64,000 nt of DNA from Spirochaetales bacterium (GTDB taxonomy: Bacteria > Spirochaetota > Spirochaetia > UBA9216), in assembly GCA_016839055.1 (NCBI GenBank), contig JAEKNX010000002.1:1-64000 (forward strand). Reading direction: 5' to 3'. Within the stretch, counting starts at the first letter, position 1. Each line of letters opens with the position of its first letter. Below the pieces are notes generated by a model. That model was given only the letters and a program-made list of their open reading frames with translations, made no database searches and had not been told where the DNA came from. Below, piece after piece: positions 10,091-62,580 of the stretch. The position numbers and the translations under genes were made by a program.

Positions 10091-11143
10091 ATGATAGATA
10101 TGAGAGAGAAGTTGAGTGAGGGTAAAGAAGCACCGGATTTTAATTTTGATACTCCATGGACTCAGAATCAGAGATTTCATGACTATCTTGCCGACGGGAA
10201 AACAATATTGATTTTCTTACGTTATATGGGTTGTCCTATTTGTCAGATGCGTATAAGTAGTCTTAGAAATGACTGGACTCGGTTTAAAGCGAAGGGAGTC
10301 AATGTTCTGTTAGTTCTTCAGAGTACTCCGGAAAACATAACATCTGTTGTGTCGAAAGCGGATATCCCATTTACAATTGTTTGTGATCCGGAAGAGAAAA
10401 TATTTGGACAATATAAAGTAACTGGCGGAAATTTGTTCCAATATGCAGCGCCCTCAGTATTATCTAAAGTAATGGAAGCTAAAAAAGCAGGAATCGAACA
10501 TGGCCCTAATGAAGGCAATGAACGTCAGCTGCCGGCTGTGTTTCTGATCAACGAAGAGAAGCAGATTCGTCATGCATATTATGGCAAGAATGTTGGAGAT
10601 TCGCCTGACAATGAAGAACTTCTTCAATTGGTGGACAGGGTCTTTTCTGCTGCTCTTATAAATGATGAGATGGCAGTTGAATATAAGGAGATCGACTCAT
10701 CTCAGATTAAGCTTGTAGAACCGCTTTTCTACGAATTGATGAAGTTCCAGAAATCACAGGCAATCTGGATGAAGAAAGGATTTGATCTTATGAACTTTGA
10801 AAAAAGGATAATTAATGAACTCGGCACTTTTAAGGAGTCACGGATTATTCTGGTTACCGACGATGAAATGCCTATAGGCTTTGCATATACCTCTCTTGAT
10901 ATGGACAATTCAGGGAAATTGAAATTGTTTTATCTGAAGGATGTATATAGAGGCAGAGGGATTGGCAGTCGACTATGCGAAGATGCCTTGTGTTGGTTGA
11001 AATCAAAGCATGCCGAAAAGATTATAGTTTTTGCATCAAACGGTAATACAAGAGCTTTTAAGTTTTATGAGAACAAAGGTTTTAAATTTCAGAGAAATGT
11101 ATGGTTTGGCGCTGTTAAAAAATACGAGTACATGGGCAACTGA
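10091..11143 (+). CDS. Peroxiredoxin-like domain fused to a GNAT acetyltransferase
   Basis: A 350-residue two-domain protein. Residues 1-190 are an AhpC/TSA-like thioredoxin fold related to the C-terminal domain of the fused lyase at 5588-7279: MGCPICQ carries the CxxC (Cys48, Cys51), then VLQSTPENI, VCDPEEKIFGQY and NERQLPAVFLI. Residues about 195-350 are a GNAT N-acetyltransferase: the acetyl-CoA loop is RGRGIGSRLCEDALCWL and NTRAFKFYENKGFK is the typical end. The ATG at 10091 has only a weak ribosome site; an ATG at 10100 is an alternative. The substrate of neither domain can be read. A peroxide or persulfide reductase coupled to acetylation of an amino or thiol compound would fit the locus. 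Confidence 0.8.
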   Translation: MIDMREKLSEGKEAPDFNFDTPWTQNQRFHDYLADGKTILIFLRYMGCPICQMRISSLRNDWTRFKAKGVNVLLVLQSTPENITSVVSKADIPFTIVCDPEEKIFGQYKVTGGNLFQYAAPSVLSKVMEAKKAGIEHGPNEGNERQLPAVFLINEEKQIRHAYYGKNVGDSPDNEELLQLVDRVFSAALINDEMAVEYKEIDSSQIKLVEPLFYELMKFQKSQAIWMKKGFDLMNFEKRIINELGTFKESRIILVTDDEMPIGFAYTSLDMDNSGKLKLFYLKDVYRGRGIGSRLCEDALCWLKSKHAEKIIVFASNGNTRAFKFYENKGFKFQRNVWFGAVKKYEYMGN

Positions 11144-12695: not shown

Positions 12696-13781
12696 ATGCT
12701 GCTTCGAATTATTGACAGGAAGCATGCAATTGCATCTTTGAATTCTTATCCTTATAAGATGAATGAAGATTTTTTTGATGAACCGTTTCAATTTTTAAAA
12801 AACGCCGTCTTGAAACATTGTGACTTTATGGGCACTATAAACGAACTGCAGGATAGGACTGAGGAATTCAGGGTTTTGTCGGGGGCAAAAGTTGTGATAA
12901 TGAATGAGATATCTCTATCCGAGGATTATCTTATTTTCAGAGCTTCAGCCGGTATTGAGGAACAGAAATTGGAGAAATTTGCATATTCCGGTGAAAACGG
13001 ACAGTGATTCCGGAGCAAAGCGGACAGCAGCCTGAAGGATAAAATCCTCGCCTGTTATTATGAATAAGTGTCCGTTTTGAGTCAATCTACAGCATCGGAT
13101 ATAACAGAGCAGGAGCGGGCAAGGGATGTGCTGCTTGACCGAACTGCGATGAGCGAAGCCTATGTGAAAGAAGTCAATCATAGAGTAAAAAATAATCTTG
13201 CGATGATAGACAGTGTTCTCTCGCTTGAAATAAATGCTTTGACTGCGAGCGATTCTGCTACTATCCTTCTTTTGAACGATATCAGAGAAAGAGTAAAATC
13301 TGTAGCATTGGTACACCAGATGCTCTATGATCTGTCAAGGAAAGGGAAGATTGAGATGTTCAGCTATCTTCGAAACCTGGCTGATACTATAACAGAAAGT
13401 CATACTGTGATTAATGATGCACCTGTTCTTGATTTTGATTTATAAGGTGAGTATTGGATACCTTCAGATGAAGTTTTGCCTGGTGGAATGATCACTAATG
13501 AGTTGATTCTCAATGCATTAAAGTATGCCTTTGATTATAATACAGATGGTGTAATAAAAGTCAGCTTCAATGAACTTCTGAAAGAAGGCTATATATTATC
13601 GGTTGGTGATAACGGAAAAGCTCTTGAATCAAAAAATCTGGATAAAAAATCTTCAGGGATAGGTAAATCCCTTATGAAAGCTCTTGTTTGGCAGCTGAAA
13701 GGATCGCTGGAGATTGAAAGTATCGATAAGTATAAATATTTCCGGATCAGTTTCAGATCAGGTTCGATTAAGCACTTTTAG
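12696..13781 (+). pseudogene. GAF / HisKA_2 sensor histidine kinase broken by three in-frame stops
   Basis: One frame runs from 12696 to 13781 with stops at 13005-13007 (TGA), 13065-13067 (TAA) and 13443-13445 (TAA) and no frameshift. Before the first stop is a GAF-like fragment (VVIMNEISLSEDYLIFRASAGI). After the second is the dimerisation box with the phosphoacceptor histidine, EVNHRVKNNLAMIDSVLSLE, of the HisKA_2 group. After the third is the ATPase part, with MITNELILNALKYAF (N box) and VGDNGKALESK (G1 box). The kinase would have phosphorylated itself and a response regulator, but none is adjacent. The N-terminus is missing or very short; degraded repeat sequence lies directly upstream. 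The gene cannot give a full protein by normal translation. Confidence 0.75.
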
Positions 13782-13863: not shown

Positions 13864-15261
13864 TTAAAATATTTTTCCAGGGTTAAGCAGTTCTTTAGGA
13901 TCAAAACAACGCTTTATACTGTGCATAAGATTTATTGTGGTTTCACCAAGAGAGTTTTTCAGGAATTTATTTTTCGCATGACCTATACCGTGTTCACCGG
14001 ATATCTGTCCGCCCAATTCTTTTGATTTTTCATATAGACTGTTCATTGCTGCTTCACATTTATCTTTCCAGACCGAGTCTTCTATATTGTCTTTGCAAAG
14101 ATAGATATGCAGGTTTCCATCGCCCGCATGGCCAAAACTCTGAATCCTAAGATTTTCTTTTTGTTCGAGCTCATCAACATGGTCCATGAAGGGAGAAAGT
14201 TTGGTTCTCGGAATTACAACATCGCATTCGTCCATCTCGGAAGTTGATGTTTTTATAGCTTCGAGAAATGCACCGCGCGCTTTCCATATTGAAGTCTGGC
14301 GCTCTTCGGTATCTGAGATGAAGACATCTTTCGCACCGCATTCAAGGCAGACATCAGCTGCTTTTTGATAAATTCGGGTCAGTTCCTGCTTTGAATTTGC
14401 ATCAAAGGTTAAAAGAATATATGCCTCTGCTGATTTATCCGGAAAATGCAGGCCTAAATATTCTTCTGCAGCTTCAATTACTTGAAGCTGCAGAAACTCG
14501 ATGGCTGTAGGATAGGTTCTTGATTGCAGTATTTTAGGGACTGTTTCAAAGCATTGCCTTAGATTATCAAACGGGATCAGTAGTGATAGTGATTCTTCAG
14601 GAAGAGGGATTAGCTTGAGAGTCAGTTGGGTAATAACAGCAAGGGTTCCCTCGGAACCGATGAGAAGATCCTTGATGCTGTATCCTGAACTGTTTTTTAC
14701 AACCTTACCACCTATATTGATAATCTCTCCGCTTATGAGAACTGCAGTCATTCCAAGAACATAATCACGTGTAACACCGTATTTTATAGCACGCATACCT
14801 CCGGCATTTGTCATGACGTTGCCACCTATTGTCGCAGATTTTTCACCCGGATCCGGGGGGTACATCATGCCGCGATTTATAGCTTCTTCGGCTAATGTCA
14901 TGAGAAGGACGCCTGGTTCAACTGTTGTTGTGAAATTATCATTATCAAATTCCAGTATCTTATCCATTTTTGCCAGGGAAAGCAGGATTCCTCCGTATAA
15001 TGCAACGGCATTCCCGCAAAGGCCAGTGCCTGAACCCCGAGGGGTTACCGGGATGTTGTGACTGTCTGCATACTTCATGATATCTGAAACCTGTTCTGTG
15101 GATCTGGCTTCAACAACGACTTCCGGGGAGAATTTTCCATAGATGGTCATCTCGTCATGAGTAAAATCTTCATGGATATCAGAACCGGTAAAAACATGCT
15201 CCTTACCGCAGATGCCCGTCAGGAATTCAATATCCCTATCTGTAACCTTGTTATATTTCAT
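13864..15261 (-). CDS. GlcD/LctD-type FAD-linked 2-hydroxyacid oxidase
   Basis: A cytoplasmic FAD-binding oxidoreductase of 465 residues. The N-terminal FAD (PCMH-type) fold shows VTPRGSGTGLCGNAVALYGG and EPGVLLMTLAEEA, with YPPDPGEKSATIGGNVMTNAGG. The C-terminal half ends with SFGHAGDGNLHIYL and the GGQISGEHGIGHAKN metal/substrate loop. Family members oxidise D-2-hydroxyacids such as lactate or glycolate. The chosen ATG at 15261 has AAAGGA upstream and overlaps the previous gene by 11 bases; a longer start at 15291 is possible. The order EtfB, EtfA with ferredoxin domain, then this gene is that of the electron-bifurcating lactate dehydrogenase of Acetobacterium (LctBCD). The true hydroxyacid here is not certain. 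Confidence 0.85.
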   Translation of the reverse strand: MKYNKVTDRDIEFLTGICGKEHVFTGSDIHEDFTHDEMTIYGKFSPEVVVEARSTEQVSDIMKYADSHNIPVTPRGSGTGLCGNAVALYGGILLSLAKMDKILEFDNDNFTTTVEPGVLLMTLAEEAINRGMMYPPDPGEKSATIGGNVMTNAGGMRAIKYGVTRDYVLGMTAVLISGEIINIGGKVVKNSSGYSIKDLLIGSEGTLAVITQLTLKLIPLPEESLSLLIPFDNLRQCFETVPKILQSRTYPTAIEFLQLQVIEAAEEYLGLHFPDKSAEAYILLTFDANSKQELTRIYQKAADVCLECGAKDVFISDTEERQTSIWKARGAFLEAIKTSTSEMDECDVVIPRTKLSPFMDHVDELEQKENLRIQSFGHAGDGNLHIYLCKDNIEDSVWKDKCEAAMNSLYEKSKELGGQISGEHGIGHAKNKFLKNSLGETTINLMHSIKRCFDPKELLNPGKIF

Positions 15262-16441
15262 AATTGCTGATTCCTTTGATCTTATCAACAAGAGGAGGAA
15301 GGAGCTCGTATAAATCGCCGATCATGGCGCAATGAGCAATCTTGAAGATTAAGGCATCCTTATCTTTGTTTATTGCTATTATTTTTTCAGATGAATTCAT
15401 ACATGCTGTGAATTGTATTGCGCCGGATACTCCGCATGTTATTATCAGTTTCGGTTTAACCGTTCTGCCTGACAGGCCTATTTGCCGGGTGTAATCTGCC
15501 CAGCCTTTTTCAACCAGAGGGCGGGTTACGGCATATTCGCCTCCGAGACTGTTAGCAAGCTCCTTTACTAATTCTAGGTCTTCCTTTTTTGCTACACCCT
15601 GACCGGCAACTATGAGTACTTCTGCATCAGTTATTGACGGTGCCGCTTCCTTGGGAATTATATCTAAGACATCGATACTTGAAGTTGTTATCTGTCTTGA
15701 GGTGTTTCGGTTTATAACATTGCCATGCGGTTCACATTTTTCCGCGCAGTTCATTACTTTATAGCGAACTGTAGCAAATTGAGGCCGTGTGTGTGCGGTT
15801 ATTATCTGGGCCATTATGTTCCCGCCGAAAGCTGGTCTGATTTGGATTAGATCGGTATTCTTCTTAATCTTCAGGCGTGTACAATCTGCTGTGAGACCGG
15901 TTTTGAATCTGGTAGAAATACGGGGCGCAAGCGAGCGTCCTATTGATGTGCTTCCTATGAGAACGACAGAAGGTTTGATCTCTTTGATTAGATCTTCAAA
16001 GACATTTGCATACAAATCCGCAGAAAAACGTTTTAGACGTTCGTTATCATAGACAAATACGGTATCTACACCATATTCCAGAAATTTCTGCGAAATATTT
16101 TTGAGCTTGTGTCCAATAAGCAGGCAATAAACCGGCATATCAACCTTGGCCGCAAGCTCCCGACCTATTCCGATGAGCTCGAAGGTTATAGGGTGAATTT
16201 TATTTTCATAATATTCAGCGTAAACAAGGATGCCCTGCCAGTCTGTTTTATCTATCAATTGCTGTTTTTCTTCAATTTTGATAGCATTCTGCGGACAGTT
16301 TCTTATACATAACCTGCACATCCTGCAGGCAGCGTTGATTGTGATACTGGTTTCCATCTCTTCGATAGCATCAAATGGGCAAACGGATATGCACCTTCCA
16401 CATAAATCACAAAGCTCTGAATCAATATTTATACTTGCCAA
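15251..16441 (-). CDS. etfA: Electron transfer flavoprotein alpha subunit with N-terminal 2[4Fe-4S] ferredoxin
   Basis: A 396-residue EtfA. Residues 1-60 form a ferredoxin-like part with CDLCGRCISVCP and CRMCRLCIRNCP, each able to hold a [4Fe-4S] cluster. The rest is EtfA: the FAD site in the C-terminal domain reads GLSGRTVKPKLIITCGVSGAIQF, followed by IIAINKDKDALIFKIAHCAMIGDL. The extra ferredoxin domain is typical of bifurcating Etf such as LctC, where electrons from NADH and ferredoxin are mixed to oxidise lactate. The start is TTG at 16441 with GAGGAG six bases before it. It overlaps glcD-like by 11 bases and follows etfB by 10, so the three are one transcript. Confidence 0.9.
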   Translation of the reverse strand: MASINIDSELCDLCGRCISVCPFDAIEEMETSITINAACRMCRLCIRNCPQNAIKIEEKQQLIDKTDWQGILVYAEYYENKIHPITFELIGIGRELAAKVDMPVYCLLIGHKLKNISQKFLEYGVDTVFVYDNERLKRFSADLYANVFEDLIKEIKPSVVLIGSTSIGRSLAPRISTRFKTGLTADCTRLKIKKNTDLIQIRPAFGGNIMAQIITAHTRPQFATVRYKVMNCAEKCEPHGNVINRNTSRQITTSSIDVLDIIPKEAAPSITDAEVLIVAGQGVAKKEDLELVKELANSLGGEYAVTRPLVEKGWADYTRQIGLSGRTVKPKLIITCGVSGAIQFTACMNSSEKIIAINKDKDALIFKIAHCAMIGDLYELLPPLVDKIKGISNYEI

Positions 16442-16451
16442 TCTGTACTCC

Positions 16452-17240
16452 TCATATAAACTTCCATTGCTTTAACAATTCATAGGCGTATTGTGAGCCG
16501 TCAGTATCAGCACAGTCGATTATTACCTGTTCTACATTATGTTCCGGTTTGAAAATCCGCTCTACCTGTGTCGGGGAGCCTTTGAGTCCGTAATTTGATT
16601 CAGAGGTATCCGGCAAATCCATAAGAGATAAATTTGTGATTGGGCGATCTTTTGTTTTTAGCATATTTAGGTATGAAGGCAACCTCGGCGTACATATATT
16701 ACTTTCAATTGTTATAAGGCAGGGATAGGGGAGGCGTACAACCTCGAAACTGTATTCCATATTTTGCTCAACAATTATACTTTGATTATTCACTTCCTTG
16801 ATTCTGGAAACCCATGCTACATGCGGGATATTAAGATGTTCGGCGATTGCGGGCCCTACCTGTGCTGTGTCGCCATCGGTCGTCTGCTTTCCGCAGATAA
16901 TCAGATCGTAGCTACCTATTTTGGAAATCCCGCCTGCAAGGGTGTATGATGTTGCGAGTACATCTGAGCCTGCAAACCTTTTATCGGACAGGATATATCC
17001 GTCATCAACACCTATCATAAAGGCTTCTTTAATAATCAATTCAGCCTGGGAAGGCCCCATTGTTAAAACGGTTACCCTTGCACCTGTCTGTTCTTTCAGT
17101 TTGAGGGCAGTTTCTATAGCAAATAAATCATAGGGATTCATTTTGCTGCTGATGCCGTCCCGCTTTAGAACCCCTGTCTCTTCGTCTATTTCAACCTGCG
17201 TAGTTCCGGGTACCTGTTTAATACAAACAATAATATTCAT
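16452..17240 (-). CDS. etfB: Electron transfer flavoprotein beta subunit
   Basis: A 262-residue EtfB. It begins with the family N-terminus MNIIVCIKQVPGTT, continues with GSRKMNPYD-like SSKMNPYDLFAIETAL, and has the FAD/AMP-binding CGKQTTDGDTAQVGPAIAEHL near residue 115. It partners the EtfA encoded next on the same strand. The gene is 33 bases downstream of the GntR-SMP-30 fusion, on the same strand, so the regulator and the bifurcating complex are likely co-transcribed. Confidence 0.92.
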   Translation of the reverse strand: MNIIVCIKQVPGTTQVEIDEETGVLKRDGISSKMNPYDLFAIETALKLKEQTGARVTVLTMGPSQAELIIKEAFMIGVDDGYILSDKRFAGSDVLATSYTLAGGISKIGSYDLIICGKQTTDGDTAQVGPAIAEHLNIPHVAWVSRIKEVNNQSIIVEQNMEYSFEVVRLPYPCLITIESNICTPRLPSYLNMLKTKDRPITNLSLMDLPDTSESNYGLKGSPTQVERIFKPEHNVEQVIIDCADTDGSQYAYELLKQWKFI

Positions 17241-17273: not shown

Positions 17274-18824
17274 TCACATGATTTGTGAACGATATTCGGG
17301 CTTACCTGCTGTCATAAGTTCAGTTTTGAAGATTGCACCTGCTTTTTCACCGTTTCGATTCCGGTTTTCTCCTCCGGCGGATGTGATAAAGAGAGTCTTT
17401 AAATCGCAGCCTGCAAAGCAAATGCTGGTCGTGTTTAATGCTGGTATCTCTATATTCTTTATAAGTTGTCCCTCGGGAGAAATCATTATCAGGGTTCCTC
17501 CATTCCAGAGAGCTGCTATGATGTTTCCTTCGCTGTCTACGGTCAGGCCGTCGGGTTCGATTGAGTTATCGACTTGATAAAAAAGTTTTTTATTCTCTAT
17601 TTCTCCGGTTTCCTTATTATAATCGTATCGATTGATACTGTGACGGGTAGAATCATTATGATAGAAAAAAGCAAGATCGGGTGAAAATCCCATACCGTTT
17701 GAGATGGAGACGTCTTTTATTACCTTTGACATCTTTCCGTTTGTTTCAATCCTGTATACCGCACCCTGTTGAGTTCTGGATGCTATGGAACCCAGGAAAA
17801 CCCTTCCTTTTGGATCGGCTATTGCATCGTTGAAATAGACGGAGTCGACATCCTGAGGGAATTTAATATTTAAAGGGCGGAGTGTTTTTGAGTCTATATT
17901 AAATGAACCTATTGTGCCGTTGTTGAAAAAAAGTAACAGTTCTCCATTTTCCTGAAGGGTCAGACCTCCTATGTGATCACCCTTATATAGAATCTCAGGA
18001 TTTGCTGTTCCGTTTTTTGAGCTGTAAAGAAGTCCTTTTCGGATATCGAGCCAAACAAGAAGATCCCTGTCGGGATGCCAGAGGGGGGACTCTCCGAGAA
18101 TCATTTCCATATCAAAGGCTGTATCTAGAGAGTATGGCTGAGTTTCTCTGTCATTAAGTCCGCGGTAGATGTTTTTTAGGTGATTAGACAGGTGAGTATT
18201 CATAAGGTTGACAGCTTTCTCGGTGTCTCCCTCTTCAATTGCTGTAAGGATAGCCTGGTGATCTTCTACCGAGGCGGTGGCGCTTGAATAATAATCACTT
18301 ATACTGCCCATTGAAAGATTCCGCATTATATTGATGCTGAAAATCAAGTTGGTGATAGCATTTTTTAAGTATGGATTACCACTATGCTGATATAGTGTTT
18401 CATGAAAATTAAAATCTATTTTGAGGAAGTTGAGCTGGTTGCTGTTTTTGATTGCCTCACGGGATCTGTTGACTACCCTGTGAAGCTGGTCAAAGGCATT
18501 TTTATTAGGGTTTTCACATAGTCTTTTTATTGCAATCTCTTCGATAGCACGGCGAAGTTCAACGATTGAATCGATCTCGTCTCTGGAAAGGGTTTTTACA
18601 TAGTATCCTTTCCATTGGACTTTTTTGAGTATCTCGGCTTCGGTGAGCTGTGCGAGTGCTTCGCGTACTGAGGCGCGGCTTACTCCGAGCTTTTCGGCAA
18701 GATCCTGATCGTTTATTCTTTCTTCAGGTTTCCATATTCCTTCAAGAAGCCCGTCTTTTATATAATCGGATATATCATCAGCTTTGCTTGTTTTAATGTT
18801 TTCTGTAGTTCTTGCTTTGTTCAT
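17274..18824 (-). CDS. GntR-family (FCD) regulator fused to an SMP-30/gluconolactonase domain
   Basis: The 516-residue protein joins a regulator and an enzyme fold. Residues 10-80 are a winged helix (DLAEKLGVSRASVREALAQL). Residues about 85-225 are the FCD ligand domain with the Asp/His metal pattern in DFNFHETLYQHSGN and VEDHQAILTAIEEGD. Residues about 238-510 are a six-bladed propeller of the SMP-30/regucalcin/gluconolactonase family; the likely metal ligands are present: Glu in MILGESPLWHP, Asn in YFNDAIADPKG and SISNGMGFSPD, Asp in EPDGLTVDSEGN. The frame is continuous. It heads the etfBA-glcD operon and is divergent from an ABC/catabolic operon, so it probably controls both. The propeller may sense or hydrolyse a sugar lactone. 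A free SMP-30 paralogue is at 61705-62580. Confidence 0.85.
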   Translation of the reverse strand: MNKARTTENIKTSKADDISDYIKDGLLEGIWKPEERINDQDLAEKLGVSRASVREALAQLTEAEILKKVQWKGYYVKTLSRDEIDSIVELRRAIEEIAIKRLCENPNKNAFDQLHRVVNRSREAIKNSNQLNFLKIDFNFHETLYQHSGNPYLKNAITNLIFSINIMRNLSMGSISDYYSSATASVEDHQAILTAIEEGDTEKAVNLMNTHLSNHLKNIYRGLNDRETQPYSLDTAFDMEMILGESPLWHPDRDLLVWLDIRKGLLYSSKNGTANPEILYKGDHIGGLTLQENGELLLFFNNGTIGSFNIDSKTLRPLNIKFPQDVDSVYFNDAIADPKGRVFLGSIASRTQQGAVYRIETNGKMSKVIKDVSISNGMGFSPDLAFFYHNDSTRHSINRYDYNKETGEIENKKLFYQVDNSIEPDGLTVDSEGNIIAALWNGGTLIMISPEGQLIKNIEIPALNTTSICFAGCDLKTLFITSAGGENRNRNGEKAGAIFKTELMTAGKPEYRSQIM

Positions 18825-18851
18825 GATCTTACTATAGATGAATAATTATTG

Positions 18852-18871
18852 TTTGTAAACATTTTTACAAA
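18852..18871. promoter_or_regulatory. Palindromic operator candidate for the GntR-SMP-30 regulator
   Basis: TTTGTAAA at 18852-18859 and TTTACAAA at 18864-18871 are perfect inverted repeats with a 4-base gap. It sits 28 bases before the regulator start and inside the divergent region. GntR/FCD proteins usually bind short palindromes containing GT-AC half-sites, which fits. Binding is inferred, not shown. Confidence 0.5.
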
Positions 18872-18905
18872 TATAAAATTACAAATTCTAAATTTCAAAT
18901 TTAAA

Positions 18906-18934
18906 TTGACAATACGATTTTTACGATCTATTCT
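18906..18934 (+). promoter_or_regulatory. Candidate promoter of the ABC/catabolic operon
   Basis: TTGACA at 18906-18911 and TATTCT at 18929-18934 are 17 bases apart. It reads towards the binding-protein gene at 19041 and lies 35 bases from the palindromic operator candidate. Confidence 0.5.
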
Positions 18935-19040: not shown

Positions 19041-20303
19041 ATGAAAAGAGCATTGTTGATCGTACTAGTTCTGATGGTCGTTGCTTTTGGCGTATATGCC
19101 GGAGGAACAGCCGAGAAAGAAACGGAAAGTGTTGTTCTTAGAGCCCTGATAAGGCCCGATGAGGGAGGAAATGTTCAGAAGTATGCAGATATTTTTGAAG
19201 CCGAAACAGGTATCCGGGTGGAGGTGGATTTTGTAGGTTGGGCAGAAATCCATGACAAATCCATATCAACCCTGAGTGCAGGCGGCGGCGGTTATGATAT
19301 AATTTTTGTTCCATCCGCAAATGTTGTTGAATTTACCTCAGTAGGGGATTTTGAAGCCTTAAACAATATGATTTCTTCCGGAGAAAAAGCCGACTGGTTG
19401 CAGCCAGTACTCGATCTATATACCAGAGAAGGTGATTTGGTTGCTATGCCTTGGTATTCCGGCGGTGCTCACATGGTTTATAACAAGGAAATTCTCGATA
19501 AGGCCGGTGTTGATCCTGAGAAGATTGTAACGTGGAATGATTTTAAAGATGCTTGTAAAAAAATCAAAGCTGCTGAACTTTTAAAATATGTTTATACTCC
19601 AACAGCAAAGTATCCCGGGAATTTTTACTATGCATGGGGAAGTATGGTAGCTTCCAGCGGAGAGTCCTTTTTTGATGCAGCTGGAAAGCCTGTATTTGAT
19701 AAGGGTTCAGCTGTACTTGATTCTCTTAAACTTGTTTCGGAAGGAACTAAAGAGGGTCTGTTTGATCCTGCTGCTATTGCTATGGACGACTATGAAGCAC
19801 TTATTCAGTTCGGCAGTGGAGACACCGCCTTCATGATGAATTCTACATGGTCCGCAACTCAGGCTTATCGTAATGCCGATTTGTCCAAGGTAACAGGGAA
19901 AGTCGGCTACATGCTGATTCCAGGATGGAAAAGCGAGCCCCGCTCTGGAGGATTTCTCTATGCCGGAGGATTGGGGATCCTGAAAAGTTCCAGGTATAAG
20001 GAAGAGGCGAAGCAGTTCTTGACTCTTCTCACTAGTGCCGATGCTCAGAAACATCATGCTATCGAAGGCGCAAACCTTCCGACAAGAGTTGCCCTTTTTG
20101 AGGATAAAGAGATTGATTCTTCATGGGCTGGTTACAAAGCATTAACAGCTCAGTTGTCATACGGTTCTTTTCTTCCGCAGTACAGCTGGTTTGAGGAGTG
20201 GCGTCAGGCTACCAGCGGAGTTGTGCAGAAAACAATAGCCGGAAATATAACACCTGAAAAGGCTTTTGATTTGATTCTGGAAAATGCCAGAAAGGCTCAA
20301 TAA
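19041..20303 (+). CDS. ABC transporter extracellular sugar-binding protein (family 1)
   Basis: A 420-residue exported solute-binding protein. Its N-terminus is a signal peptide ending VYAGG, with the hydrophobic core LLIVLVLMVVAFGVYA. Features of the family 1 (MalE-like) fold include KYADIFEAETGIRVEVDFV and MPWYSGGAHMVYNKEIL. It should capture a sugar or sugar derivative and deliver it to the two permeases that follow. The ATG at 19041 is preferred over a TTG at 18996 because AAAGGAG precedes it and the signal peptide begins there. It is the first gene of an eight-gene operon. Confidence 0.88.
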   Translation: MKRALLIVLVLMVVAFGVYAGGTAEKETESVVLRALIRPDEGGNVQKYADIFEAETGIRVEVDFVGWAEIHDKSISTLSAGGGGYDIIFVPSANVVEFTSVGDFEALNNMISSGEKADWLQPVLDLYTREGDLVAMPWYSGGAHMVYNKEILDKAGVDPEKIVTWNDFKDACKKIKAAELLKYVYTPTAKYPGNFYYAWGSMVASSGESFFDAAGKPVFDKGSAVLDSLKLVSEGTKEGLFDPAAIAMDDYEALIQFGSGDTAFMMNSTWSATQAYRNADLSKVTGKVGYMLIPGWKSEPRSGGFLYAGGLGILKSSRYKEEAKQFLTLLTSADAQKHHAIEGANLPTRVALFEDKEIDSSWAGYKALTAQLSYGSFLPQYSWFEEWRQATSGVVQKTIAGNITPEKAFDLILENARKAQ

Positions 20304-20340
20304 TATAGCTTAAAATTTTCAAGGAGGATGCGGCAGAATC

Positions 20341-21237
20341 ATGACTAATACATCTGTAAAGAGAAAACAGGAGCTGAAGCTTGCATTGGGACTGGTTCTG
20401 CCGGCTCTGATTATTATGGCTGCGGTGAACCTTTATCCCCTGATTTATTCCTTTGTGATCAGTTTGAGGGATTATGATTTTCACGGGGATAAGAGTTATC
20501 CCTTCTGCGGCCTGGAAAACTATATTTATATATTTGAGGATGTTCGTTTCTGGAGGAGTCTAGGTATTACTCTCATATTTACGGCCGGAGCGGTGACGCT
20601 TGAAATCGGTCTCGCTTTGATGTGTGCTCTGGCTTTAAATCGCAAATTTAGAGGGCAGGGAGCACTTCGTGTAATCGCTCTCCTGCCCTGGGCTATACCT
20701 CCGGTTGTAAACGGAATATTGTGGAAGTGGATACTAAACCCCCGTTATGGTGCTTTAAACGGCTTGTTGATGCAGCTGGGCGTTATAGATGAATACATTG
20801 TTTGGCTTGGGAGCCCGTCACTTGCAATGTTGATGGTTATCCTTACTGATGTATGGAAAGAAACTCCTTTCATCATGCTGCTGCTTTTGGCAGCTCTACA
20901 GTCGGTGCCCTCATACCTTTATGATGCAGCGAAGATTGACGGCGCAGGTGCCTTCAGGACTTTTAAGGAGGTTACTCTGGCATTAATAAGACCTGCTCTT
21001 TTTGTAGCGCTTTCATTGAGGACGATATGGGCTTTGAAGAGTTTTGATCTTATCTACGCTCTTACACAAGGCGGACCATCCAACAGCACTGAGGTTTTAG
21101 GATACTATACATATCAAAAATCTTTTGTATCGCTTCATATGGGAAGAGGTGCGGCAGCCGCTTACATTATGACCTTCATTGTCCTTTTGATAGTAATTTT
21201 TTATCAGAAGGCTGTTTATCAGGATGTGGAGTATTGA
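20341..21237 (+). CDS. ABC sugar permease, MalF/UgpA type
   Basis: A 298-residue inner-membrane permease with six hydrophobic segments. The EAA loop that contacts the ATPase reads DAAKIDGAGAFRTFKEVTL. AAGGAGG lies 10 bases before the ATG. No ATPase gene is present in the operon, so the system must borrow one, as many family 1 importers do with an MsmK/UgpC-type ATPase. Confidence 0.9.
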   Translation: MTNTSVKRKQELKLALGLVLPALIIMAAVNLYPLIYSFVISLRDYDFHGDKSYPFCGLENYIYIFEDVRFWRSLGITLIFTAGAVTLEIGLALMCALALNRKFRGQGALRVIALLPWAIPPVVNGILWKWILNPRYGALNGLLMQLGVIDEYIVWLGSPSLAMLMVILTDVWKETPFIMLLLLAALQSVPSYLYDAAKIDGAGAFRTFKEVTLALIRPALFVALSLRTIWALKSFDLIYALTQGGPSNSTEVLGYYTYQKSFVSLHMGRGAAAAYIMTFIVLLIVIFYQKAVYQDVEY

Positions 21238-21238
21238 T

Positions 21239-22093
21239 ATGAAAAAAAACAGCATCAGAACAGTTATTTTTATAATATTTGTAATTTTCTTTATCCTGAT
21301 TGTGCTTTTCCCATTTTACTGGATGATTGTTTCCAGTATAAGTCCGCAGGTTGAGCTGACTGAAAAACCACCTCATTGGATTCCTCAGGAACCGAGTCTT
21401 AAGCGATTCGTAAATCTATTATTCGGCGGAGAGGGCGGAAACGCGGCAAGACAGAGAGTTTTTGTTTCAAGTCTGATTACCAGTGTTATTGTAAGCGTTT
21501 CTACTACCATAATATGTCTGGTAACTGGAACCATGGCGGCATATGCATTGGCTCGAATCAGGATTGCCGGAGTTATGAAAATTCTTGTAGGCATTCTGAT
21601 AGCACAGATGATCCCAATGATTGTAATTGTAATTCCTCTGTTTCTCTTTTTGAAAGGGGTAGGTCTTTACGATAGCAGGCTGGGGCTTTCTATTGTTTTC
21701 ACCGGTCTCATGCTTCCAACAGTAATCTGGATTATGTTCGGTTATTTAAAAACCATTCCAACTCAGCTTGAGGAAGCCGCGATTATGGACGGCTGTTCTC
21801 CGTTTGCAGCAATGGTGAGGATCGTTATCCCATTGTCTGTGCCGGGCCTGGTTGCGGTCGGGGCGTTTACGTTTCTGAATACATGGAATAACTTTTTTGT
21901 TTCCCTGGTCTTGACCGCTTCCCGGGCAAAGCCGCTTACGGTAGTCATAACAGAGTTTTCAAGTCAATTTGGGATTGACTACGGACTTATGGCAACCGGC
22001 GGAGTTATTGGTTGTATTCCCCCGATATTGCTGACGATTCTGCTGCAGAAACATATCGTCTCCGGCCTGACTGCCGGAGCAGTGAAAGGTTAG
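21239..22093 (+). CDS. ABC sugar permease, MalG/UgpE type
   Basis: A 284-residue permease with six membrane segments. The EAA loop is EEAAIMDGCSPFAAMVRIVI. The ATG at 21239 starts 1 base after the stop of the previous gene, with AGGATGTGGAG upstream; an ATG at 21224 in the same frame would overlap that gene. It pairs with the MalF-type permease to form the channel. Confidence 0.9.
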   Translation: MKKNSIRTVIFIIFVIFFILIVLFPFYWMIVSSISPQVELTEKPPHWIPQEPSLKRFVNLLFGGEGGNAARQRVFVSSLITSVIVSVSTTIICLVTGTMAAYALARIRIAGVMKILVGILIAQMIPMIVIVIPLFLFLKGVGLYDSRLGLSIVFTGLMLPTVIWIMFGYLKTIPTQLEEAAIMDGCSPFAAMVRIVIPLSVPGLVAVGAFTFLNTWNNFFVSLVLTASRAKPLTVVITEFSSQFGIDYGLMATGGVIGCIPPILLTILLQKHIVSGLTAGAVKG

Positions 22094-22100
22094 GTGCAAA

Positions 22101-23165
22101 ATGCTTATTTTCGACAGTCATGCTCATATAATTTCTCCGCTTGCCGGAGCCTGCGGTTACTCGAGTTCTGAAGAGCATCTGGCAGTCTGTCAGGCAGCTA
22201 TGAGGGATCATCTTTCTCAGCCATCGAGATTGGTTGACGACAACAGTATTGTAAATGAGAAAAAATTATGGAATCTAAAGGATCGTTCTATTAAGGGCAG
22301 GTTGGATACCTCGTTCAGGGTCGGCGATTTTGGACGCTTTCAATGGAATCAGGACGGTAGGCAATGCTACATTCAGTATCTGCCACCTTATGCCACCGAT
22401 ATGTCCTGTCCTCCGGGGATGCTTAAAGCCATGATGGATTATGCAGGAGTTAATAAAGCAGTGCTGCAATGCGGCGGAGTCTACGGGCGGTTGAACGGTT
22501 ATTACGCACAGATAATGAAAGATAATCCTCGTTTCAGGGAAGTATTTTATCCTCTGGCTTCCGTAAATCCTGTCGAGGATCCTGTCGGTGCGGGTGCTGA
22601 GGTAGAAAGAGCGGTAAAAGACGACGGCCTGGCCGGGATCTGGATTTTTCCGGAGCAAGGGCTCTTTGACTTCCATTGTAGAGACTTCTGGGATCGGGCG
22701 GCAGCCTTAGGTGTTCCGGTCTTTCTCGCATTCTTTCCGGATTTAGACTGGACCAAGCGGATTCTTGCAATGTCGCACTGGATTAACGAGTACCCTGAAC
22801 TGCCAATTGTGCTTCCACAGGCCTTTCCCCTTCCGGCTGGAGAAGTTCCAATTGTAGACTTTCCGTCTTCAGTGGAAAGGCTTCTTATGAAAGGTAATAT
22901 ATTTGTTGAAATAATCTATCCGATAAGCCAGGGGAACAGGGAAGCTTATCCATTTAATAGAAGTTTGAAAGCCTTTAGAGAAGTATATTCCCGGCTTGGT
23001 GCTGAAAAGCTGGTGTGGGGATCTGATATTCCGATGGTTGAACGCTATTGTACCTATGCACAATCTTTAAATTATCTTGGAAATTATTCTAATTTCCTTT
23101 CGGAAATGGACTTGGAAAAGATTCTGGGTAAAAACTTAGAGGAAATATTTAAAAGGAAACAATAA
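22101..23165 (+). CDS. Amidohydrolase-2 family metal-dependent hydrolase
   Basis: A 354-residue TIM-barrel hydrolase. FDSHAHII at the start gives the HxH metal pair (His7, His9), and LVWGSDIPMVERY near the end carries the metal-binding aspartate of amidohydrolase family 2. This family includes lactonases, decarboxylases and amide hydrolases. There is no signal peptide, so it is cytoplasmic. It starts 7 bases after the second permease. In context it may open a lactone or remove an acyl group from the imported compound; the reaction cannot be named. Confidence 0.75.
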   Translation: MLIFDSHAHIISPLAGACGYSSSEEHLAVCQAAMRDHLSQPSRLVDDNSIVNEKKLWNLKDRSIKGRLDTSFRVGDFGRFQWNQDGRQCYIQYLPPYATDMSCPPGMLKAMMDYAGVNKAVLQCGGVYGRLNGYYAQIMKDNPRFREVFYPLASVNPVEDPVGAGAEVERAVKDDGLAGIWIFPEQGLFDFHCRDFWDRAAALGVPVFLAFFPDLDWTKRILAMSHWINEYPELPIVLPQAFPLPAGEVPIVDFPSSVERLLMKGNIFVEIIYPISQGNREAYPFNRSLKAFREVYSRLGAEKLVWGSDIPMVERYCTYAQSLNYLGNYSNFLSEMDLEKILGKNLEEIFKRKQ

Positions 23166-23170
23166 CTGCT

Positions 23171-24289
23171 ATGACAATCTACGATAGACTTAAAATAAAA
23201 ACCTATATAAATGCTTACGGCACAGTAACCCGTTACGGAGGTTCGCTGATGTCTCCTGAGATAATTAGAACCATGGAAGAAGCTTCAAAAAGCTTTGTTG
23301 ATATGGAAGAGTTTCATCAAAAAGCCGGTGAACATATTGCCTCACTTTTAGGTTGTGAGGCAGCCTTTGTTACAAGCGGGGCTGAAGCTGGAATTGCTGT
23401 GGCTACAGCCGGAATTATAGCCGGGAAAAACATTGTTAATATTTTCGCCCTTCCTGATTCGGACAATATGAAGAATGAGGTACTGATTCTTAAAAGTCAT
23501 CGTTCCAGATATGATCAGGGGATCAGGGTTGCAGGTGGGGTACTTAAAGATATTGGTTCAACTGATCTCGTTTATCCTGAAATGCTGGAGGCCGGGATAA
23601 GTGAGAAAACCGGTTTTATTTTTTATTTAGCCGAGGCCGCTGATGAGCGGGGTTCTTTACCTCTGTCCGATGTTGCTGGTATTTGCAGGAAGCATGGTAT
23701 TCCTCTGGTGGTAGATGCAGCGGCCGAGCTGCCTCCGCTGGATAATTTCAGGAATTTCCTGGAACAGGGAGCTGACCTTGTAATTTTCAGCGGAGGGAAA
23801 GATATTGCCGGTCCACAGTCGTCAGGCCTTATTGTTGGCCGTAAGGAGCTGATAGAGCGGTGCCGGGCTAATTCTTGTCCGAATCACAGTATCGGACGGG
23901 CAATGAAGGTCGACAAGGAAACCCTCGCTGGTTTTGTTCGTGCAGTTGAACTCTATGTCGATACAGATTTTATTGAAAAAACAAGTCGGTGGACTGAGAT
24001 TGCGGAAATGATTTTTGAAGGACTTAATGATTTAACGGGCATAAGGGTTGTTAAAGACCTTCCTTTTGAGCCTGGAATCCAGCCGAGAAATATTCCCCGT
24101 GTTTTTGTGAGTCCGGAAAAAGGCGGATTGAACAGGGTTAATGACTGGCATCGAAAGCTTCAGGATGGAGAGCCGGGGGTTATAACCGGTATATACCGGG
24201 AGAGTCTTATGATTAATCCTCAATGTCTGGGCATTGAGGAGGTCGATGTTGTTGTAAACAGGCTTTCGGAAATAGTGAGGGGGGAATAA
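23171..24289 (+). CDS. SelA/DgaE-like PLP-dependent enzyme
   Basis: A 372-residue fold-type I PLP enzyme. It matches the group related to SelA that includes DgaE (D-glucosaminate-6-phosphate ammonia-lyase). INAYGTVTRYGGSLMSPEI near the start and FVTSGAEAGIAVATAGIIAG are characteristic. The PLP lysine is Lys210 in FSGGKDIAGPQSSG, with VVDAAAELPP upstream. Ammonia or water elimination from a sugar acid is the likely chemistry. The neighbouring RidA (25065-25523) would clear an enamine/imine product. The stop overlaps the next ATG (ATAATGA-like). Confidence 0.75.
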   Translation: MTIYDRLKIKTYINAYGTVTRYGGSLMSPEIIRTMEEASKSFVDMEEFHQKAGEHIASLLGCEAAFVTSGAEAGIAVATAGIIAGKNIVNIFALPDSDNMKNEVLILKSHRSRYDQGIRVAGGVLKDIGSTDLVYPEMLEAGISEKTGFIFYLAEAADERGSLPLSDVAGICRKHGIPLVVDAAAELPPLDNFRNFLEQGADLVIFSGGKDIAGPQSSGLIVGRKELIERCRANSCPNHSIGRAMKVDKETLAGFVRAVELYVDTDFIEKTSRWTEIAEMIFEGLNDLTGIRVVKDLPFEPGIQPRNIPRVFVSPEKGGLNRVNDWHRKLQDGEPGVITGIYRESLMINPQCLGIEEVDVVVNRLSEIVRGE

Positions 24290-25056
24290 TGAAACATGAA
24301 CTTTATGGGAAAAGAGCCCTTGTTTTCGGGGCCAGCTCGGGGATAGGGCGAGCTTTGGCTATAGCGCTCGGACAGGCCGGGGCCAGGGTTGCTGTCAGCT
24401 ATAATAATAATGCTGCCGGTGCTGAGCAGACAATGAGTTTGATTCCTGAACAGCAGCGGGCGATAATATTGAAGGCTGATCTTTTAAAGCCGGTAGAGGT
24501 GGAACAGACAGTCACGGGGGCAGTAAAAGCTCTTAAGGGTTTAGATTTTGCTATTCTGGTTGCAGCTCAGTTTCATATGGCTCCTTTAACAGAATGCCAA
24601 AATAATATCATTGAGGAAGTCGTCTCACGAAACGTAGTGGCTCCTTTTGTTTTTGCACGTGAGGTTTTGAAAGAACTAAAACGGAACGGAGGAGGGAAGA
24701 TATTTTTTGTCGGTACTAGTCAGGGGCATCGTCCTTTGATAAATACATCCTTATATGCGGGAACTAAGGGGATTCTCTTGAATCTGGTGAAAAGCATCTG
24801 CCTTGAACACGGTCGAGATAATATTCAGGCTCTGTTATTAAGTCCGGGGGTTACAATGTCGGCAGGGAATATTGAAAACTTCAGCTCGGATGATGAGCGC
24901 AACAACGCAGAAATGATAATTCCTGCAGGTAAAATTCTGCAACCGGAACAGTTTGCTGATATTGCTATGCGGCTTTTAGGAGAAGACTCCGGATATATTA
25001 CCGGATCAGAGATTATGGTAGACGGCGGGCTTCTTTGTACCGGCGCACAGGTATAG
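24289..25056 (+). CDS. Short-chain dehydrogenase/reductase
   Basis: A 255-residue classical SDR. The cofactor loop is VFGASSGIGRALA near residue 12. The active-site tyrosine and lysine are in LYAGTKGILLNL, and a serine is in FVGTSQGH. ADL after the third strand suggests NAD(P). The C-terminal SEIMVDGG is typical. It should oxidise or reduce a hydroxyl or keto group of the substrate in this pathway. It is within the operon, with 8 bases to the next start. Confidence 0.85.
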   Translation: MKHELYGKRALVFGASSGIGRALAIALGQAGARVAVSYNNNAAGAEQTMSLIPEQQRAIILKADLLKPVEVEQTVTGAVKALKGLDFAILVAAQFHMAPLTECQNNIIEEVVSRNVVAPFVFAREVLKELKRNGGGKIFFVGTSQGHRPLINTSLYAGTKGILLNLVKSICLEHGRDNIQALLLSPGVTMSAGNIENFSSDDERNNAEMIIPAGKILQPEQFADIAMRLLGEDSGYITGSEIMVDGGLLCTGAQV

Positions 25057-25064
25057 GAGATTCT

Positions 25065-25523
25065 ATGAGTATTGAAGAGCGTTTGAAAGAACTAAATCTT
25101 GTGATTCCTGATCCGCCGGAACCAGTTGCTAATTTTGTTCCGTGCCGCACTGCCGGGAAATTGGTCTTTATCAGCGGACAGGGCCCGGTGATAAATAATC
25201 TTCCGGTACATATGGGAAAGCTTGGTAAGGAAATCTCTCTTGAAGACGGATATGAAGCTGCAAGACTTTGCGCACTGAATCTATTGTCTCAGTTAAAAAA
25301 TAAAATATCTGATTGGAATCAGCTTAAAAAGATTGTCAGTGTTCGGGGATTTGTTGCAAGTACAGAAAATTTTTATGATCAGCCAAAGGTTGTAAATGGT
25401 TGTTCCGATCTGCTCTGCGATATATTCGGTGACCGGGGCATTCATGCTCGCTGCGCGCTGGGAGTAAATGTTCTACCTGGAAATATCCCTGTTGAGGTAG
25501 AGATGGTTGTGGAGCTTTGCTGA
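25065..25523 (+). CDS. RidA family protein (second, divergent RidA)
   Basis: A 152-residue YjgF/RidA member of the longer, more divergent kind. FISGQGPV near residue 35 and the C-terminal HARCALGVNVLP with VEVEMVVEL retain the arginine and glutamate used by deaminases. The ATG at 25065 is chosen because GGAGA lies just before it; an earlier start at 25035 would overlap the SDR. It follows the PLP enzyme and SDR and may hydrolyse an imine from ammonia elimination. Confidence 0.8.
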   Translation: MSIEERLKELNLVIPDPPEPVANFVPCRTAGKLVFISGQGPVINNLPVHMGKLGKEISLEDGYEAARLCALNLLSQLKNKISDWNQLKKIVSVRGFVASTENFYDQPKVVNGCSDLLCDIFGDRGIHARCALGVNVLPGNIPVEVEMVVELC

Positions 25524-25538
25524 TAGGGAAATGGTGAT

Positions 25539-26444
25539 TTGAATATATTGCCCAGCGCGGGTTGCCGCATTTTAAAAAACAAGCATCTTGAAGTAGAAGT
25601 AATTATTCCGGGTACTTTCTATACAGAATCCAGATTTGACTGGCTGGGAATGGTTAGCCGGATATCTGATACTGAAGGAAATTGCTATCTCGGACAGGAG
25701 TTTTTATCAGCTTCTCAGGCTTCTGGAAAGACTGGAGGAATCGGTTTGTCAGGCGAATTTCTAACTATGTCCCCCTGGGGCTATGCTCAGGCTAAGCCTG
25801 GGGAAGAGTTTCTTAAGCCTGGAGTCGGTTTTCTTACTCGTGTGGGGTATGAAGATTATTCGTTCTTTCAGGATTATCCAGTAAGACCATTTACGACGGA
25901 GATTAAAAGCCTGAAAGACGGAATTGAATTCACGCAGAAGAGTTGTCGGTTAAAGGAGTCGGTATTTAATTTGTTTAAAAGCATAGAGCTTGAGGGTGAT
26001 AAGTTGATAATATCCTCAGAATTGGAAAATTGCGGAGGAGATTATCTTAGCGGAGATGAGTATTGTCATAATTTCCTGAGTTTTCTCGGGCACGGTATTG
26101 TTCCCGGATTAGAATTCAATTACCAGGCGGATAGTGAGCTGTTGTGGGAAAATTGTGACAGAAACTTGGTAGACCTGGTTCAAGGAGATTTCAGCTTTAA
26201 ACGCGTTCCTGAAAAGGAGTTTTTTTGTTCTTCCAGATTTCAAAAACCATTTTCTGAAGCATCCTGGTCGGTTAGAGACCGCTTTAGTGGTCTTGGAGTA
26301 AGCTGTTTGGAGAATTTTCCTGTTGCGAAAATGGCAATATGGGGAACCGCTAAGGTGTTCTCTCCGGAAGCCTTTCATGAATTTACTATTGAGCCAGGTA
26401 TGAGCCTCTTCTGGCAGAGGGTTTATCGCTTTGCTAATTATTAA
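25539..26444 (+). CDS. Galactose-mutarotase-like protein (aldose epimerase superfamily)
   Basis: A 301-residue beta-sandwich protein of the mutarotase superfamily. The pattern FDWLGMVSRI near 33, GIGLSGEF near 69 and WQRVYRF at the end support the fold. The start is TTG at 25539, about 16 bases after the RidA stop, with GGTGA upstream; the start is not certain. Such proteins interconvert anomers or bind the sugar. It is the last gene of the operon. The identity of the sugar cannot be read. Confidence 0.6.
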   Translation: MNILPSAGCRILKNKHLEVEVIIPGTFYTESRFDWLGMVSRISDTEGNCYLGQEFLSASQASGKTGGIGLSGEFLTMSPWGYAQAKPGEEFLKPGVGFLTRVGYEDYSFFQDYPVRPFTTEIKSLKDGIEFTQKSCRLKESVFNLFKSIELEGDKLIISSELENCGGDYLSGDEYCHNFLSFLGHGIVPGLEFNYQADSELLWENCDRNLVDLVQGDFSFKRVPEKEFFCSSRFQKPFSEASWSVRDRFSGLGVSCLENFPVAKMAIWGTAKVFSPEAFHEFTIEPGMSLFWQRVYRFANY

Positions 26445-61704: not shown

Positions 61705-62580
61705 TCAGCCCTTGAAAAACAGCTCAAGCCTTCCTTTAATTTCGGAATCGAGGATGAAGAGATCTCCCGAGTCAGGGTAGGCTGCGAGCTCTTCTTCCGA
61801 TAATCCTTTCCGGGCTGTCGTGATATATAGGGTTTCAAGCTTTTCACCGCCGAAAGCCATGCAGGTAGGTGTCGGCACGGGAAGCTTTACCACCCTCTCA
61901 ACCGTTCCTTCCTGATTGTATCTTGTTAACCTGTATCCGGCCCAGTGAGCACTCCAGAGAAAGTCTTCGGCATCAATTATTAATCCGTCGGGAAGTCCGT
62001 TTTCTTCAGGAATCTCGGCAAAAAGCTTCTTGCCGGAGATCTCGCCGGTTTCTTTGTCGAAATTATAAGACCAGATGCAGCTTGCAAACATCTCTGTGAC
62101 ATAAAACCTGCTGCCGTCCTGGTTGAAAGCCAGACCGTTTGGAAGTGCAAGTCCGCCGACAGCTTCTTCGATCGTCAGATCCTTGTTTACACGGAACACG
62201 CAGCCGTCCTTAGAATAGAGATCTGCGCAGTTATATGCTCCGAAATAAAAACATCCGTCAGGTCCGGCAGTGCCGTCACCTAGGAGCATATCTTTCCTTC
62301 CCTTCAGCGGGTTGCCAAGATCTTCGATAATTTTGAAGTTTTCGTCACAGGTCACAAGCCTGTCGTCCAGTACGGCAATCCATCCTCCAGATTCCCGGAA
62401 TCCGAGACACTGAAAGTTTCCCTCGAGTTCATGTTCTACCGTCTTCCCGCTCGCAGGATCGAGCTCGGTGCAAGTCGGATTACCTGTGTCGATAAAATAC
62501 AAGAATCCAGTCGCCGGATGAACAACTGGAGCCTCCCCGCAAAAATATTGTATCTTTGTTTTCTGGAAATCGCCGCTCAT
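61705..62580 (-). CDS. SMP-30/gluconolactonase family protein
   Basis: A 291-residue propeller protein of the SMP-30/regucalcin family. GDGTAGPDGCFYFGA, LALPNGLAFNQDG and GLPDGLIIDAEDFLW have the likely metal ligands. It hydrolyses lactones of sugar acids. The ATG at 62580 is chosen for GGAG upstream; a start at 62643 would add a membrane-like segment that does not belong. It is flanked by the two IclR genes, all near the alcohol dehydrogenase and the kinase. Confidence 0.82.
   Translation of the reverse strand: MSGDFQKTKIQYFCGEAPVVHPATGFLYFIDTGNPTCTELDPASGKTVEHELEGNFQCLGFRESGGWIAVLDDRLVTCDENFKIIEDLGNPLKGRKDMLLGDGTAGPDGCFYFGAYNCADLYSKDGCVFRVNKDLTIEEAVGGLALPNGLAFNQDGSRFYVTEMFASCIWSYNFDKETGEISGKKLFAEIPEENGLPDGLIIDAEDFLWSAHWAGYRLTRYNQEGTVERVVKLPVPTPTCMAFGGEKLETLYITTARKGLSEEELAAYPDSGDLFILDSEIKGRLELFFKG

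Follow-up and report, generated by a model that had tools for sequence, protein, structure and literature searches.

A GntR/FCD regulator gene joined to an SMP-30 propeller and flanked by sugar and lactate dehydrogenase operons in a spirochaete

The fused gene and its setting

The window, i.e. the whole stretch of 64,000 nucleotides that was analyzed, contains a single unbroken frame of 516 codons in which a GntR winged-helix domain and an FCD ligand-binding domain are followed by a six-bladed SMP-30/SGL propeller (Table 1). As proposed in the preliminary description, the gene has a divergent sugar operon on one side and leads a second operon on the other. The latter continues 33 nt downstream on the same strand, and the label given to it in that description, etfBA-glcD, is more precisely lctBCD. 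The last gene of the divergent operon (25539-26444, forward strand) has no Pfam or NCBIfam match.

Table 1. Coordinates of the fused gene, its domains, the flanking operons and the DNA between them, with related loci in other genomes
Feature	Position or loci	Strand	Basis
GntR/FCD-SMP-30 fusion regulator gene, 516 aa	17274..18824	-	ORF, Pfam, PDB sequence matches, AlphaFold, fold search
GntR winged-helix DNA-binding domain, residues 15-76	18597..18782	-	Pfam PF00392
FCD ligand-binding domain, residues 87-213	18186..18566	-	Pfam
Linker, ~residues 219-242, about 20 residues	18099..18170	-	Model confidence low at 225-245
SMP-30/SGL six-bladed propeller, residues 243-483	17376..18098	-	Pfam, alignment, fold search
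lctB (EtfB)	16452..17240	-	Profile matches; start 33 nt past fusion gene stop, same strand
lctC (EtfA with ferredoxin domain)	15251..16441	-	Best PDB match LctC, E=3e-130
lctD	13864..15261	-	Best PDB match LctD, E=7e-174
Predicted fusion-gene promoter, TTTACA-17-TATAGT	18831..18859	-	Promoter prediction
Palindrome TTTGTAAA-CATT-TTTACAAA	18852..18871		Two perfect 8-nt arms
AAATTT repeat element, candidate operator	18883..18905		Common to upstream regions of related regulators
Predicted divergent-operon promoter, TTGACA-17-TATTCT	18906..18934	+	Promoter prediction
ABC sugar transporter: binding protein and two permeases	19041..22093	+	Pfam
Amidohydro_2 family hydrolase	22101..23165	+	Pfam
DgaE/SelA-like PLP enzyme	23171..24289	+	Profile matches
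SDR dehydrogenase	24289..25056	+	Profile matches
Rid/YjgF family protein	25065..25523	+	Pfam, alignment
Spirochaetal lctBCD operons with neighboring FCD regulator, one clade	L126, L127, L129, L130, L131, L133
Other SMP-30 fusions, same class	L029 (G403 C96), L095 (G432 C52), L096 (G245 C156)

The Pfam matches in the frame (GntR, 1.1e-11, above the cut-off; FCD PF07729, 2.1e-25; SGL, 5.9e-62) include an SGL profile that is covered whole (positions 1-245 of 246), and the complete SMP-30 domain initially described on the regulator, together with its coordinates, strand and frame, is borne out. Among PDB sequences the C-terminal half matches Caulobacter xylonolactonase (2e-33) and regucalcin, and the N-terminal half matches GntR regulators. 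Mean pLDDT is 72.7 for an AlphaFold model of the isolated propeller and 68.5 for the full-length model, which was made with an alignment of GntR relatives only. The full-length model predicts a winged helix with an FCD bundle up to residue 228, followed by a low-confidence segment (residues 225-245) and then the propeller. Fold comparison of the full-length model with VIA-align matched AlkR over residues 12-226 (Z 24.2) and human SMP30 over residues 236-505 (Z 23.5); with the propeller alone, xylonolactonase and SMP30 were top-ranked, with TM scores of ~0.8 to 7plb and 4gnc at 28-30% identity.

The junction sits between complete domains and gives no sign that two genes have been joined in error, in that Met239 has no Shine-Dalgarno sequence (0.4 kcal/mol) and Met241 a weak one (-3.3 kcal/mol; most neighboring starts lie at -4.6 to -10.9 kcal/mol), and the GC3 of the two halves is alike (0.399 and 0.397). 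A second copy of the fusion gene is absent from its own genome (5.0 Mb).

Metal sites and relatives of the two halves

The N-terminal half has the winged helix, helical FCD domain and D/H/H/H metal site in common with other FadR/FCD regulators, including TM0439, DgoR, McbR and AlkR, and its fold matches those of TM0439, McbR and AlkR with Z 20-24; unlike all four, the fused protein has an extra complete six-bladed propeller at its C terminus. In the tree it groups (100/99) with an FCD subfamily that, unlike other FadR/FCD regulators, was found here in spirochaetes only, and throughout the alignment of which the metal-site residues D137, H141, H189 and H211 are invariant. FCD pockets bind carboxylates via such metals, an aldonate example being D-galactonate in DgoR (PMC7674646).

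The propeller likewise has the hallmarks of the SMP-30/gluconolactonase family, e.g. human SMP30 and Caulobacter XylC, namely a complete SGL profile, the metal triad and Asn103. Metal ligands E18, N154 and D204 of human SMP30 align with E245, N376 and D425; of the 39 aligned sequences, all that have a letter at one of these positions carry the ligand there. The claim that the metal ligands are intact is thus upheld, and neither of the findings that the preliminary description had named as speaking against it, a frame joined by error or metal ligands unconserved in homologues, was made.

SMP30 depends critically on its metal and on Asn103; the sugar hydroxyls are held there by Arg101, Asn103 and Glu121 (PMC3551927). 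The fusion propeller retains Asn103 (as N332) but, unlike the family to which it belongs, has Tyr330 for Arg101 and Arg350 for Glu121, so leaving the sugar-binding set incomplete, and is placed behind a DNA-binding regulator. As read from the alignment, the metal centre is kept and the sugar pocket altered. The replacements speak against an SMP30-like specificity, not against SMP-30 family membership; Arg101 and Glu121 are not universal across the wider family (PMC3551927). Arg101 is, however, kept in 34 of the 39 aligned proteins, including all nine other members of the clade of the fusion propeller, and the end branch of the latter (1.17 changes per column, with 0.3-0.6 for its sisters) is the longest of that clade. 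Given the loss of Arg101 and this long branch, the ligand or role of the propeller has probably changed; given Tyr330 and Arg350, the ligand may be other than a classical sugar lactone, and the same replacements, with the long branch, could mean that catalysis has been lost.

The nearest relatives of the propeller, three spirochaetal proteins (36-39% identical) and haloarchaeal plasmid proteins (38-40%), are all unfused. The window has another SMP-30 gene (61810-62541, reverse strand), which is unfused, belongs to a different clade and has Leu at the Arg101 position.

Both halves of the fused protein belong to known families; their combination is unusual and rare, being seen in one genome. A search for further GntR-SMP-30 proteins, which the preliminary description had proposed, returned none from ~580 Spirochaetota genomes (overlapping samples of 393 phylum, 395 class, 41 near-relative and 7 order genomes) or, by tblastn, from 72,556 plasmids; 24 plasmid records reached at least 80% coverage, all as two-piece matches, and the three that were opened contain separate genes. 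Nor was such a fusion present among ~150 SGL genes listed in 375 class genomes or on viral contigs, and a literature search for GntR-SMP-30 proteins found no paper. Since no orthologue of the fusion was found, there is no conservation of the combination. Coverage outside the Spirochaetota was shallow, comprising the plasmid tblastn and a scan of GTDB contigs with patterns of the fusion's GntR subfamily only; the scan gave six loci, all unfused and spirochaetal, and, as it used one subfamily's patterns, fusions with other GntR subfamilies may exist outside the phylum.

Long SGL frames in the class genomes have a PhyH-like or FGGY-kinase partner, or are spurious high-GC frames; by eye, SMP-30 is fused to a PhyH-like dioxygenase in two species of the class and to an FGGY-kinase-like protein in one. 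Adjacent but unfused FCD-GntR and SMP-30 gene pairs occur on Agrobacterium and Rhizobium plasmids, with ABC transporter genes adjoining them. Unlike in the fusion, these genes are separate, and neither is the closest relative of the corresponding half; by analogy, side-by-side genes of this kind would nevertheless be an obvious precursor arrangement, though of other subfamilies.

The flanking operons and the DNA between them

The operon led by the fusion gene is, as judged by sequence, that of an electron-bifurcating lactate dehydrogenase, lctBCD, of the Acetobacterium woodii type; the best PDB match of lctD is to LctD itself, the next best having an E-value of 1.5e-75, and the published LctD active-site residues (PMC9232219) are conserved in an alignment read by eye. 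Beside lctD lies a HisKA_2/HATPase histidine kinase remnant with in-frame stops (12696-13781, forward strand), which is likely a pseudogene. In A. woodii, the source of the best matches of lctC and lctD, a regulator gene is likewise found directly upstream of lctBCD, the encoded LctA being a GntR protein; unlike LctA, the fused protein carries a propeller. LctA is a repressor that is released by D-lactate (PMC13372834), and because the Acetobacterium regulator answers to this acid, a carboxylate ligand of the FCD domain would, by analogy, be at least as likely a signal as a sugar lactone handled by the propeller. A literature search found no study on the regulation of this type of lactate dehydrogenase in spirochaetes.

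Among 12 other lct loci of spirochaetes whose upstream DNA could be read, 6 have an unfused FCD regulator adjoining lctB. These six regulators form a clade of their own (100/99), apart from that of the fusion (100/99), and are probably the spirochaetal counterpart of LctA. In this tree-based comparison, which covered the spirochaetal lct regulators, the fused protein fills the LctA place without being close kin of the lctB-side regulators, and the proposal that it is LctA with an added domain was rejected on that ground. The best match to an lctB-side regulator in the same genome is 32% identical and lies on another contig. At one further locus (L125, G412 C25) lctBCD diverges from a sugar ABC transporter, as in the window, with no regulator detected between them.

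Control of the divergent operon by the fusion regulator is supported by the neighborhoods of two unfused members of its subfamily, one (L085) adjoining DgaE-like, Rid and ABC permease genes and the other (L087) a Rid gene 47% identical to that in the window.

The palindrome to which the preliminary description had pointed as a DNA-binding site is real, and the -35 predicted for the fusion gene falls within it. As a family operator, however, it was rejected: it was not found upstream of related regulators, it has no other exact copy in the 5.0-Mb genome, and its mismatched copies are no commoner (92) than those of a control pattern (97). The AAATTT repeats are the better candidate operator, since they are shared among kin, whereas the palindrome is unique and unconserved. 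They are found in most upstream regions of the subfamily, where they number 18 (4.9 +/- 2.0 in shuffles, with 0 of 1000 as high), and pairs of them occur at 4 loci where 0.085 would be expected; in the window, the element ends at the -35 of the predicted divergent promoter. The element is AT-rich, and its candidate assignment as an operator rests on few loci; the NanR operator, (GGTATA)3, provides a precedent for repeated hexamers with a GntR-type repressor (PMC8012715). The fusion gene has no Shine-Dalgarno sequence, and only ~7 nt separate the end of its predicted -10 from the ATG (18824-18859), which suggests that the transcript is leaderless.

Possible roles of the tethered propeller

One frame, with both modules complete and both metal sites intact as far as aligned residues indicate, lies between two divergent operons. 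The explanation proposed, to which a probability of about one half is assigned, is that it encodes a bifunctional one-component regulator, which arose when an SMP-30 lactonase gene was joined end to end to a GntR regulator gene of the FCD type, has a tethered lactonase-type enzyme, and represses both operons. A GntR dimer, bound to the AAATTT repeats that separate the two promoters, would repress its own operon, lctBCD, as well as the ABC/DgaE/Rid operon, with a carboxylate (an aldonate or D-lactate) at the FCD metal site releasing the repressor. The tethered propeller would be a metal-dependent lactonase-type enzyme with a substrate from the same pathway, a ring compound, and with a specificity altered by the loss of Arg101. 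Control of DNA binding by the propeller itself forms no part of this explanation, but production or sensing of the inducer by the propeller is plausible. The regulator may thus hydrolyse or sense a sugar lactone, as suggested from the initial reading of the DNA. A more specific proposal, in which the transcription factor makes its own inducer, the lactonase opening a lactone of the pathway to give an aldonate or hydroxy acid that is sensed at the FCD metal site within the same chain, is rather improbable; if true, the self-made inducer would couple catalysis to derepression at the promoter.

A possible, though on balance unlikely, alternative is that the propeller is a second sensor that binds a sugar or lactone at its metal with little hydrolysis and signals to the GntR/FCD core, so making a two-input regulator with sugar sensed via the propeller and lactate or an aldonate via the FCD domain. 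The location of the gene, with a sugar operon on one side and a lactate operon on the other, is consistent with such a role, as are a metal site that is kept though the sugar-contacting Arg101 is lost and the length of the propeller branch; yet all the metal ligands are intact, as is N332, the equivalent of which is critical to catalysis in human SMP30, and the linker is modelled as unstructured, such that no coupling path is evident. It is improbable, too, that the gene is a recent accidental joining without regulatory meaning, with the halves acting independently or the propeller decaying. That the fusion is a singleton among ~580 genomes, that SMP-30 has repeatedly been joined to unrelated partners in this class and that adjacent unfused pairs exist would all fit a neutral origin, but every catalytic metal ligand has survived despite the long branch, and in the loci read, the genes of spirochaetes that are closest to either half but unfused do not lie next to each other. 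An assembly or sequencing error, as might be suspected from a fusion in a single genome without an orthologue, out-of-frame stops near the junction and the broken kinase gene nearby, is highly improbable in view of the uninterrupted frame, the junction between complete domains, the missing or weak start signals at Met239 and Met241 and the equal GC3.

If the propeller of the proposed bifunctional regulator is active or ligand-sensing, an enzyme and a repressor of the same pathway are combined in one chain as a one-component regulator. The fusion would then lend itself, as a natural construct, to testing whether the input of a switch can be set by local catalysis, and a sugar-derived signal would be tied to an energy-conserving step of anaerobes, that of the electron-bifurcating lactate dehydrogenase.

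The window contains a second unusual fusion, at 10091-11143 on the forward strand, in which a peroxiredoxin (AhpC-TSA, residues 11-161) is joined to a GNAT acetyltransferase (residues 248-331).
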